Source of the DNA: Oscillospiraceae bacterium
GTDB lineage: Bacteria; Bacillota; Clostridia; Oscillospirales; UBA644
NCBI GenBank assembly: GCA_902783255.1
Contig: CACZQB010000054.1
Location: 100,984-164,983 of the forward strand
Length of the DNA stretch: 64,000 nucleotides
Direction of reading: 5' to 3'
Shown: in pieces, positions 15,471 through 19,325 of the stretch
Numbering within the stretch: the first letter of the stretch is position 1
How the letters are laid out: every line of letters starts with the position of its first letter
Translations under genes and position numbers: made by a program
The notes under the pieces: generated by a model
Seen by the model: the letters and a program-made list of their open reading frames with translations, nothing else
Databases searched by the model: none
Told to the model about the DNA's origin: nothing

Positions 15471-17471
15471 TTACCCGATAAGATCTGAAAGATATTTTTC
15501 AGATATTTCGAATACAACAGAATCAGGTTTTTCATTAAGTATATCTCTTATTGAAATATCACCGTTTTTAAGAATAAAACTTACATTATTGAATGCATCA
15601 GAAATGAACGGCATCATTGTGATCAACGCCTCATCATGAACAACTACAACATGTCTTTCATTAACAGCATTTTTATTGCTTGTGTTTATATAGTTTTCGG
15701 CTAAATACAGGAGATTCTGGTCTGTCATCCAATCAACAGCTCCCTCACCGAAAAGCTTGTTTGTGTCTTTGTATACTGGTTGAGTTTCCTCGGTGTTTCC
15801 TGAATATGGATTGACGGCAGATGTTGAAACAATGATATTCTGTTTTTTCTTTTTTGTGAAACTGTAGTCATATTCTTTATAGCTATCCCCGTAACCCATC
15901 AGAATAGCGAGAGATTTGAACTTAGTTTCTTGTGGCTCAATTTCAAATGATTCAATATCAAGGTTGTCAACTGATTCATTGTTTGCAGACATTTTCATTA
16001 ACAAAAGATTTGTTGCATTGAAAGCTCCAAAAGAGTTCAAATAGTTATCTGTTTTAAAATACATATCTCTGTCATATGATGCAGAAACTAGCGCATCACG
16101 AAGTTCGACGATATTCATGTCAGAGTATTTCCACAAATAATCGTAAACCTGCTGCAATCTTTCTTCTCTTGACATACGTCTGATCGAAGAAGGCATCATA
16201 TTCTGATAGACAGAGCTCTTGTAAGGCACGATAACAACATAGAAATCAATACCCTGAGCGTTAAATATTTTTTCATAATTCAAAAGAGTATTTCTTATGC
16301 TAACGAGATCTTCCTTTGAATATGAATTCATTCTCTTATATGTTACAAGTTCTTCTGAACTGAAAAGCCAATTGTTTTTACCGATTACAACTTCCTCATA
16401 ACGTGAATCAGAGAATAGAAAAGTTTTCATATCGGAATAAGATGAAGACAGTCCGGAATTGATCGGGTACTGAGTTTGAAAATGTCGAGTTGCTTCTTCA
16501 GGATATTGCAAAAATCTGCCCAGTGTAAAATCAGGAGCAGAATAATCCGACGGGAGCTTAGGAAGGAAGAATATGCCGGTCAAAATCGGAATACTAATAA
16601 TAATACCTAATGAAATTGTTGTGAAAACATCATAAAATTCAGCTTTATTATCAGATTTAACAAAATTGATTATAGAAAAAACAAGACCGACAATAAAAAT
16701 AATAAGGAAAAATATTGTTTTGATAATGTAGTCGGTATTTCCAGATGGAGAAATGAAAATGCCAAAAATAATTATAAGAACAAGAGAAATAATAAACAAA
16801 GAAAAAAGAATAAACTCGGGGGAGCGATACCAACCTATAGCTCCTTCTCTGAACATTCTTATAACAAAAAGAACTCCGGTTATTAATACGAGTGCAATTG
16901 ACATTGAGATTATTGCAAGTGTCGGACGTCCGTTTGTAACCTCAATAGCATTCGAATTACAGAAATAGGCTCCGCCCTTATTGGCTTTTGTATAAACATA
17001 GCCGTCTCTGTTTGAAAAGTTACCCATTTTGGAAACTATATCAAAAACAGAGCTGATTTTATCATAAGTTATATTTTTTTCATGAGAAAATGACTTGATT
17101 TTGATCCCTCTTATTGCAAAAGCGGTCCCGTTTTGAGTTCCCATTGAAAAACGCAGATATGAAATATTCTCAGCAGGAACTTCGAACGAAACGGTTTGAA
17201 AGGATTTCATACCCTTTACATTAACAGAATTTTTATGCTCTTCATCATATCGGCTGTATTCAAGATTATCGTAATAAAGAGTGAGAGTGTCGCTGACATT
17301 GGTTTGCACATCAAGAGTAACCGTGTAAGTTAGTCCTTTCGCGCTGTCGCCTATCAACGGGTTGACAACTAGAAAATAAATGGCTATGGCGCTGACAATA
17401 AATATCCCAAGTATAACCGCGAAGCGAATAAGCTTATTTTTATCGAGTTTAATATCAAGATTATCAAGCAT
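15471..17471 (-). CDS. DltD/AlgX-like SGNH-fold membrane protein (DHHW family), active-site positions substituted
   Basis: A 666-residue membrane protein encoded directly after an MBOAT acyltransferase, the standard place for the SGNH partner that finishes transfer of an acyl group to a surface polymer. The layout is one helix at about 15-36, an extracellular domain of about 140 residues, four helices (about 184-303), then the SGNH-like domain with KNNWLFSSEE near residue 367. The family normally has a TDxHW or DHHW motif; here the aligned stretch near 474 reads TDNYL. The usual GDS nucleophile block reads HDEA near 612, so the Ser and His appear absent. The start is the ATG at 17471 (AAGGAGG, 8 bases before). 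A longer frame from 17510 is less likely. Function is inferred from context. Confidence 0.72.
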   Translation of the reverse strand: MLDNLDIKLDKNKLIRFAVILGIFIVSAIAIYFLVVNPLIGDSAKGLTYTVTLDVQTNVSDTLTLYYDNLEYSRYDEEHKNSVNVKGMKSFQTVSFEVPAENISYLRFSMGTQNGTAFAIRGIKIKSFSHEKNITYDKISSVFDIVSKMGNFSNRDGYVYTKANKGGAYFCNSNAIEVTNGRPTLAIISMSIALVLITGVLFVIRMFREGAIGWYRSPEFILFSLFIISLVLIIIFGIFISPSGNTDYIIKTIFFLIIFIVGLVFSIINFVKSDNKAEFYDVFTTISLGIIISIPILTGIFFLPKLPSDYSAPDFTLGRFLQYPEEATRHFQTQYPINSGLSSSYSDMKTFLFSDSRYEEVVIGKNNWLFSSEELVTYKRMNSYSKEDLVSIRNTLLNYEKIFNAQGIDFYVVIVPYKSSVYQNMMPSSIRRMSREERLQQVYDYLWKYSDMNIVELRDALVSASYDRDMYFKTDNYLNSFGAFNATNLLLMKMSANNESVDNLDIESFEIEPQETKFKSLAILMGYGDSYKEYDYSFTKKKKQNIIVSTSAVNPYSGNTEETQPVYKDTNKLFGEGAVDWMTDQNLLYLAENYINTSNKNAVNERHVVVVHDEALITMMPFISDAFNNVSFILKNGDISIRDILNEKPDSVVFEISEKYLSDLIG

Positions 17472-17484
17472 CTGGCATTCCTCC

Positions 17485-18960
17485 TTAATACCTGAAATAT
17501 TCAAATACACCGTTCTCGCCTGATGAAAGTGTTAAAACAGTAAAGGCAAGAATCAACATTATTACAACAGTGCGAACAGGTTTATAAACCTTTTCAAACC
17601 ATGTGTATTTTGATGAGAGCTTAGTGTATAATTTAACGAGCAGCGGCTTAGTAAACGGAAGAGCAAAAATTAATGCTATAATAGCAATAATAAATGATTC
17701 ATTGTCAAAAAATTCTCTGATGCCCATGCGAGTATTGATATAGCCGAAACCTGCGAGCGCTCTTATAATTGACCATAAATGTGTGGGGGAATCTGCTCTG
17801 AGCATTGTCCAACCAAGCATAACAACTAAAACAGAATATATATTGCCGAGTATTCTTCTTGCTTTTACCGGGATTAAAGATTTTAGTTTTGTCACACGTT
17901 TTGTTTTTTCTATCATAAGGAAAAATCCGAAATATACACCAACAAGAATTACCAACCAGGAAGCTTTGTGCCAAAGTGCACACAGAAAGATGGTAATGCC
18001 CATATTGATATACATCCATTTCCTGCTGTGTTCATTGCCACCTACTTTGCGGTTGCCGCCAAGCGGAATATAAATGTAGTCTTTAAACCATGATGATATG
18101 CTGATTCTCCACCGATTTTTCCAGAAATCTGTGATTGAATGAGCACCATAGGGATTATTGAATTCCTCAGGTAATACAAAACCGAACATTCTTGCAAGCC
18201 CAAGCGCCATATCAACGTAGCCGGTAAAAGCATAATAGACCTGTAAGGCTAAACAAATAACACCTGTCCAAGAAATAACGATTGAAAGGCTTGTTGCAGC
18301 AAGCGAGAAAATGCCATCAACTACTATTTTAAGATTAGAAGAAACAAGAACAATCTTCATTAATCCGATTGCAAATCTGAAGAGACCTTCAGATAGATTC
18401 CTTACGGTCGATTCACGGTTGTCTATCTGAGAAATGATGTTTTTATATTTTATCGCCGGACCTACGATCAGGTTCGGGAAGAAAGCGAGATACAATCCTG
18501 TATCAACAAGACTTTCTCTTCTGGGTGTTCCTCGATAAATATCAATATTATAGGAGATGGACTGAATTGTGTAAAATGCTACGCCAAACGGAAGACCGAA
18601 TTCAACAACGGGAATAAATGATCCGAGTCCCATCCAGAAAAGCGAAATAAACTCCCGCAGAGAAATACACAAAAACTCTGAATACCTGAATACAGCAGCA
18701 ACGAGAAGGTTAAAAACAATTGCAATGACAAGGAACAGTTTTTTGTTACCGCCTTCACTTTCTGCTATATGCTTACCGAGAATATGATTTACAATTATGC
18801 TTATAATAAGCATGAAGCAGAATATCGGTTCTCCCCATGCAAAAAATATTAAACTTGCCGCCAACAGGAACATATTTTTATATTTTTGCGGTAAAGCATA
18901 ATATAAAACAACCATCAGCGGAAGGAACAAAAGCAAAAATAATGGTGAATCAAATTGCAT
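17485..18960 (-). CDS. MBOAT family O-acyltransferase
   Basis: A 491-residue polytopic membrane protein of the AlgI/DltB type, which passes an acyl group across the membrane to a polysaccharide or teichoic acid. It has about 11 hydrophobic segments. The family block is seen as TDFWKNRWRISISSWFKDY followed by IYIPLGGNRKVG near residue 290, and the catalytic His as CALWHKASW near residue 333. The common FWRRWH form is altered here (FWKNRWR), but the main His is kept. A GGAGG site precedes the ATG by 5 bases. The SGNH-like partner starts 14 bases after its stop. Acetylation of a surface glycan is the likeliest job, by family only. Confidence 0.9.
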   Translation of the reverse strand: MQFDSPLFLLLFLPLMVVLYYALPQKYKNMFLLAASLIFFAWGEPIFCFMLIISIIVNHILGKHIAESEGGNKKLFLVIAIVFNLLVAAVFRYSEFLCISLREFISLFWMGLGSFIPVVEFGLPFGVAFYTIQSISYNIDIYRGTPRRESLVDTGLYLAFFPNLIVGPAIKYKNIISQIDNRESTVRNLSEGLFRFAIGLMKIVLVSSNLKIVVDGIFSLAATSLSIVISWTGVICLALQVYYAFTGYVDMALGLARMFGFVLPEEFNNPYGAHSITDFWKNRWRISISSWFKDYIYIPLGGNRKVGGNEHSRKWMYINMGITIFLCALWHKASWLVILVGVYFGFFLMIEKTKRVTKLKSLIPVKARRILGNIYSVLVVMLGWTMLRADSPTHLWSIIRALAGFGYINTRMGIREFFDNESFIIAIIALIFALPFTKPLLVKLYTKLSSKYTWFEKVYKPVRTVVIMLILAFTVLTLSSGENGVFEYFRY

Positions 18961-19248: not shown

Positions 19249-19325
19249 TGGCGCGCTTTGAGGGACTCGAACCCCCGACCTACGGCTTAGAAGGCAGTTG
19301 CTCTATCCAGCTGAGCTAAAAGCGC
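19249..19325 (-). tRNA. tRNA-Arg (anticodon UCU), CCA encoded
   Basis: A full cloverleaf of 77 bases can be drawn: acceptor GCGCTTT/AAAGCGC, D stem GCTC/GAGC, anticodon loop CTTCTAA (anticodon TCT, reads AGA), T arm GGGGG-TTCGAGT-CCCTC, discriminator G and encoded CCA. The anticodon stem ACTGC/GCCGT has one mismatch, U29 against C41. It reads AGA/AGG codons, common in AT-rich genomes. Confidence 0.95.

Follow-up and report, generated by a model that had tools for sequence, protein, structure and literature searches.

Fixed loss of the catalytic serine and histidine in an SGNH-type partner of an MBOAT protein from uncultured Clostridia

An MBOAT-SGNH gene pair on the minus strand

The window, a stretch of 64,000 nucleotides, comes from a Clostridia MAG (G000; 61 contigs, 94% complete). 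The genus carrying the gene pair described here consists of uncultured Clostridia, for which an association with the rumen is suggested by the RUG isolate name of a congener MAG. Gene pairs of this kind ordinarily transfer acyl groups onto polymers of the cell surface. Two genes separated by 13 bases are encoded on the minus strand: an MBOAT acyltransferase gene (17485..18960, minus strand; 491 aa), assigned by Pfam PF03062 (E 1.7e-22, 80.6 bits against a cut-off of 27) and by its genus orthologs, and the gene of a pseudo-SGNH partner (15471..17471, minus strand; 666 aa), which matched PF16822 (ALGX, E 1.1e-15). The open frame of the partner spans 15471-17510 (minus strand) and opens with a GTG at 17510; a ribosome binding site (AAGGAGG) precedes the ATG at 17471, and the same start is found in four of the five orthologs, so that this ATG, giving 666 aa, is the likely start as judged from the sequences.

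Upstream of the pair lies the gene of an LtaS-like sulfatase-fold membrane protein (PF00884; 19433-21526, minus strand), which scored far under the LtaS equivalog cut-off, and a tRNA-Arg gene (19249-19325) and a terminator-like stem stand between this gene and the pair. The LtaS-like gene is a conserved neighbour of the pair within the genus, and the order is kept in L022. No dltA, dltC or dltX gene was adjacent to the pair in the annotated neighbourhood, no alginate genes were found at the window pair, and the plasmid, PHROGs and PADLOC comparisons gave no match.

Substitution of the catalytic motifs in the partner

The partner is an SGNH protein of the PF16822/PatB1/DHHW type. The HMM comparison with the AlgX and DHHW families that had been suggested with the original prediction placed it above the gathering score of PF16822 (58.5 bits against 26.5; residues 374-541 of the open frame, covering only profile positions 1-165 of 268), and phmmer against solved structures returned weak matches to PatB1 (E 4e-4) and AlgJ (E 0.01). 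The PF14286 (DHHW) profile gave no row at E<=1 for the partner, although the DHHW fold 4nzk matches its structural model.

The original prediction had pointed to TDNYL in the place of TDxHW and HDEA in the place of GDS. Both are present, and their alignment to TDxHW and [RKG]DS[FY] is exact, anchored by the flanking invariant residues P416, K418, G482 and P621. KTDNYLN (16035..16055, minus strand) replaces K-TDxHW, with Asp475 kept, His changed to Tyr477 and Trp to Leu478, and HDEA (15627..15638, minus strand) replaces [RKG]DS[FY], with Asp613 kept and Ser changed to Glu614. The triad has thus lost its His and Ser and retains the Asp of TDxHW, so that it would be too strong to call all three residues missing; the AlgJ signature network is preserved at Asp475, Lys418 and Pro416. 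Substitution of the His or Trp of TDxHW in AlgJ (H195A, W196F) abolishes alginate acetylation in each case (PMC4148444), and in PatB1 homologs the triad is supplied by KDS and TDHHW (PMC9487903).

All of the genus members with the pair (n = 6/6; the window and orthologs in G001, G004, G006, G008 and G009) carry the substitutions; the five orthologs share 61-78% identity with the window partner and all read KTDNY(L/M)N and HDEA, which rules out a sequencing error. That the partner is an ordinary active enzyme which only looks substituted, owing to a wrong alignment or to faults in sequencing or assembly, is very improbable, since six genomes agree, the alignment is unambiguous at the four anchoring residues and the fold match spans the domain. 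The alignment revealed no true triad elsewhere in the protein; a replacement triad at MGYGDSY (residues 525-531) was considered and rejected, as the GDS look-alike reads ADS in L008 and its column is unconserved in active relatives. The aligned sequences give good support to the view that this MBOAT partner has lost Ser and His as a fixed trait, and a literature search found no description of this partner variant lacking both residues.

Partners of other MBOAT proteins were surveyed at 80 loci in other genomes belonging to the order and class, half of them nearest to the window MBOAT by sequence and half the best PF03062 matches. A PF16822/DHHW-like SGNH partner lay directly downstream of the MBOAT gene at 54 of these loci, and the remaining ones had ordinary-order SGNH proteins or unrelated genes next to it. 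The Asp, His, Asp and Ser were all kept in the 51 partners with readable positions (47 DHW, 2 DHQ, 1 DHF and 1 DHY), a count to be read with the survey profile in mind, which was built from rows partly picked by the DxHW motif, so that strongly degenerate partners could escape.

Fold and conservation of the SGNH domain

The SGNH domain (residues 361-666; 15474..16391, minus strand) was modelled with 74 aligned relatives (pLDDT 79, pTM 0.76). The model matched PatB1 (Z 23.4), DHHW 4nzk (22.6), AlgJ (19.3) and AlgX (16.4; the structure comparison originally suggested) far above all others, indicating that the circularly permuted SGNH fold is retained in the substituted domain.

Within this domain pN was about 0.11-0.22 and pS about 0.63-0.71 (window and cross-clade pairs), and nonsynonymous differences were far fewer than synonymous ones in both partner halves and in the MBOAT, with synonymous sites near saturation. 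Pocket positions, which were picked post hoc, were invariant in the genus in 20 of 23 cases, whereas the share of invariant positions was 53% over the domain (p 0.0005). The domain looks to be under purifying selection; the low pN and the invariant pocket indicate that it is not decaying and that the pocket is maintained in an altered form.

The original prediction had left a choice between an inactive partner and one that uses other residues. In the latter case the SGNH domain would still be an acyltransferase, acting through Tyr477, Glu614, His612, Asp475 or Ser530 of a conserved DSY, for example, and perhaps with another donor or acceptor. The KTDNY and HDEA loops and the surrounding pocket are invariant, as in a working site, and the kept residues of the AlgJ signature network would also fit; however, the Ser position has no nucleophile and the His position no general base, Ser530 belongs to the rejected GDS look-alike, and binding would equally explain the conservation. 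We consider this alternative unlikely. Since Ser is changed to Glu and His to Tyr in every ortholog, an inactive partner is the leading reading, and the protein is probably, on sequence grounds, a conserved non-enzyme acting as a scaffold or binding protein.

A genus-specific N-terminal half

A full-length model of the partner with six orthologs reached a pLDDT of 38, and the topology was read from hydrophobic stretches together with this low-confidence model. The predicted features are a first TM helix (residues 11-40; 17352..17441, minus strand), an extracellular beta-domain (residues 48-172; 16956..17330, minus strand), the strands of which appear in the low-confidence model and which had no Pfam match, and a four-TM bundle (residues 182-301; 16569..16928, minus strand). 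Nothing comparable to residues 1-305, which comprise these three elements, was present in 59 relatives from beyond the genus, and full-length matches to the partner were confined to the genus in a search of 394 genomes of the order and 398 of the phylum. The N-terminal half is therefore an addition that was encountered in this genus alone; the scaffold, which had been taken as the usual one throughout, is usual in KNNWLF and the SGNH core, but not in the first TM helix, the beta-domain and the four-TM bundle.

Kept and altered residues of the MBOAT

The MBOAT had been regarded as normal because it keeps the His of ALWHKASW. That residue is indeed kept (His331 in WHKAS, 17959..17973, minus strand; His in 71 of 71 other MBOATs), but the description as normal did not hold. 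The glycine of WHG, present in all canonical sequences (n = 72/72), is Lys in the genus, and in FWKNRWRIS (18100..18126, minus strand) the second active-site His, found as FWRRWH in DltB and canonically His in 71 of 72 and Asn in 1 of 72, is Arg285, as it is in all five genus members with readable MBOAT sequence. This residue corresponds to His289 of DltB, which forms part of the active site together with His336 and is Asn or Asp in other MBOATs (PMC11035591). The comparison with 72 other MBOATs revealed further changes: besides H285R and G332K, the window protein differs by N266E, D244A/E, K203I and W340V and at Ser128, Phe132 and the last Phe, the Asp244, Asn266 and Lys203 columns being invariant in the 72 others. 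It scored 101.5 bits with TIGR04091, the DltB equivalog, well under the cut-off of 375.

Trp330, His331, Asp250 and Tyr488 are kept in the same comparison, and His331 and Tyr488 in all genus members with readable MBOAT sequence. Tyr488 lies in FEYFRY (17488..17505, minus strand), a C-terminal acyl-shuttle hexapeptide that compares with FxYxxF, the C-terminal motif of PatA and DltX; the first Phe and the Tyr of the motif are kept, and the last Phe is Tyr. PatA depends for its auto-acetylation on the His of WHG together with the C-terminal Tyr (PMC12148441). The loss of the second active-site His and of other invariant residues makes acyl loading by the window MBOAT doubtful; from its sequence, loading is possible but not assured.

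Degenerate pairs in another family of the order

About seven genera of f20, a different family within the order, contain MBOAT-SGNH pairs in which the MBOAT has neither its catalytic His nor its shuttle Tyr and the SGNH protein has lost the triad. Fully degenerate pairs were located at L096:5099-8806, L261:998-4681, L262:1380-5142, L263:1337-5120, L266:2810-5413, L267:1528-4078, L271:2718-5186 and L272:1784-4392. The f20 MBOAT-like genes score above the PF03062 cut-off; their products have Leu, Phe, Val, Tyr, Ile or Gly at the position of the catalytic His and no longer carry the C-terminal Tyr motif. Their SGNH partners are single or tandem; the first domain reads NNTENSLN and LLLEFSDEWDK at the two catalytic motifs, both conserved, and the second ranges from intact (L054, L268, L269) to degenerate (L096, L261-L263). 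Tandem two-SGNH proteins with a degenerate first domain were also observed apart from any adjacent MBOAT (L097:7444-9786, L098:6705-9020 and L268:1287-5718), the second domain being intact in L098 and L268 and half lost in L097 (TDTLW, RDAF).

The f20 pairs resemble the window pair in their gene order, with the MBOAT first and a triad-less SGNH domain after it, and in a similar T[DE]Nx[LI]N at the position of TDxHW; they differ in that their MBOAT is also without the His and the shuttle Tyr, and in that their SGNH proteins, single or tandem, have one TM helix. On their sequences they are possibly fully non-catalytic complexes. A single origin of the window and f20 pseudo-SGNH domains, suggested at 96/90, was lost when more f20 rows were included and motif columns removed; the trees place the window and f20 proteins close to one another, but on long branches.

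These pairs bear on an explanation of the window pair in which the whole complex no longer acylates and both proteins are pseudoenzymes put to a different use, for example in sensing or as a scaffold for polymer binding or transport. The six substitutions at conserved MBOAT columns (positions 285, 266, 244, 203, 332 and 340) speak for it, as does the persistence of the f20 pairs with conserved replacement motifs, and the MBOAT tree has a 97/93 branch with the window and f20 proteins on the same side. This grouping rests on long branches, however, and the window MBOAT keeps precisely the two residues needed for PatA auto-acetylation, both of which f20 has lost; we regard the explanation as possible, if doubtful. 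It is tentatively proposed that MBOAT-SGNH pairs may have lost their acyl-transfer chemistry more than once and persisted in the envelope as complexes without enzymatic function, with the window pair standing half-way (SGNH dead, MBOAT half-altered) and f20 representing the end state.

Unpaired SGNH proteins and distribution of the pair

SGNH proteins with an intact triad and outside the pair were found in the genus. One of them, orphan B (TDHHW/KDSY; L103, L214-L221), is present in all six genomes with the pair; another, the lipoprotein-like orphan A (LDTHW/RDSF; L017-L021), is present in five of the six. Orphan A of the window genome lies at L019:1477-2832 (G000:C3), with orthologs in L009, L017, L018, L020 and L021; it has long acidic Glu-Pro repeats, adjoins proC-like genes and is limited to the subclade with the pseudo-SGNH pair, G004 excepted. 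In G004 the pair is present together with orphan B, and the orphan A ortholog is absent. In G002 and G007 the locus is syntenic without the pair, thymidylate kinase and other genes standing there instead, and orphan A is absent. G005 has orphan A and lacks the flanking gene of the pair, so that the pair locus is probably missing from its assembly.

Two deeper congeners (L285:1888-8322 and L286:3064-9537) have the downstream block of DJ-1, FTHF cyclo-ligase, CPBP protease, MltG and methyltransferase genes without the MBOAT pair, which indicates that the pair was gained or lost at this locus. A canonical MBOAT beside radA, with no adjoining SGNH partner, was observed in most congeners (L229, L238, L240, L241, L242 and L232), and a family search did not find it in G000; this unpaired protein may be the MBOAT of orphan B. 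Orphan A as the working mate of the pseudo-SGNH protein is a lead that is weakened by G004, and a sister relation of the two, as expected if one ancestral gene had divided its functions neatly between them, was unsupported by the trees.

A possible docking role for the partner

The reading that we favour, at a probability of roughly 0.4, is that of a diverged MBOAT-SGNH module in which the SGNH domain is a pseudoenzyme with a docking or presenting role, the last transfer taking place elsewhere. His331 of the MBOAT would take the acyl group from the cytoplasmic side and load it onto Tyr488 of its own C-terminal tail; the SGNH domain would no longer form an acyl-Ser and would instead bind the loaded tail, the extracellular polymer or both, so that the partner, fixed in the membrane by its five TM helices, would offer a platform for docking. 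A second SGNH protein, for which orphan A is the candidate, would carry out the final transfer in trans, or the acyl group would pass directly from the tyrosyl ester.

This docking role is favoured because the triad is lost in 6/6 partners of the genus against 0/51 elsewhere while the fold is kept and the pocket conserved, because His331 and Tyr488 are kept, because orphan A accompanies the pair in five of six genomes and is absent from G002 and G007, and because there is a precedent in AlgF, a non-enzymatic adaptor in an MBOAT-SGNH acetylation chain (PMC10641220). Against it stand the loss of the second active-site His and of other invariant residues in the MBOAT, which makes acyl loading doubtful, G004, which has no orphan A, the possibility that orphan B serves the radA-linked MBOAT, and the unsupported sister relation of orphan A.

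Every mechanistic model for PatAB, DltBXD and AlgIJFX has a last step that depends on the SGNH Ser-His-Asp triad. A conserved partner that lacks both Ser and His, next to an MBOAT with its His and shuttle Tyr, is a natural test of the steps that depend on the SGNH site and of partner docking; a complex that had ceased to acylate would represent a second, non-enzymatic use of this membrane machine. Automatic annotation will label both genes as acyltransferases.

Comparison with known acylation systems

With DltB/DltX/DltD the window pair shares the combination of an MBOAT and an SGNH partner and the Tyr of the acyl shuttle, and its MBOAT is a weak match to TIGR04091; it differs in the Arg that takes the place of DltB His289. 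The likeness of AlgF to the window partner would be one of functional analogy only, as AlgF consists of two beta-sandwiches and not of an SGNH fold.

The closest likeness by fold is to PatB1/PatA1 of Bacillus cereus (DHHW, PF14286; PDB 5v8d/5v8e), with which the modelled domain shares the circularly permuted SGNH fold, and in which the SGNH gene likewise follows an MBOAT gene. The MBOAT there carries WH and a C-terminal FxYxxF-type motif, with which FEYFRY of the window MBOAT agrees in the first Phe and the Tyr. PatB1, however, has TDHHW/KDS with a functional triad and is anchored only once, at its N-terminus, whereas the window partner has TDNYL/HDEA, five predicted TM helices and an extra beta-domain, and its Pfam match is PF16822 rather than PF14286. 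It is ALGX that gives the best Pfam match, which relates the partner to AlgI/AlgJ/AlgX, in line with the matches of its model to the AlgJ and AlgX folds. Both AlgJ and AlgX need their own Asp-His-Ser, of which the window partner lacks the His and Ser; by analogy, the division of labour between these two SGNH proteins could serve as a model for a handoff in trans.
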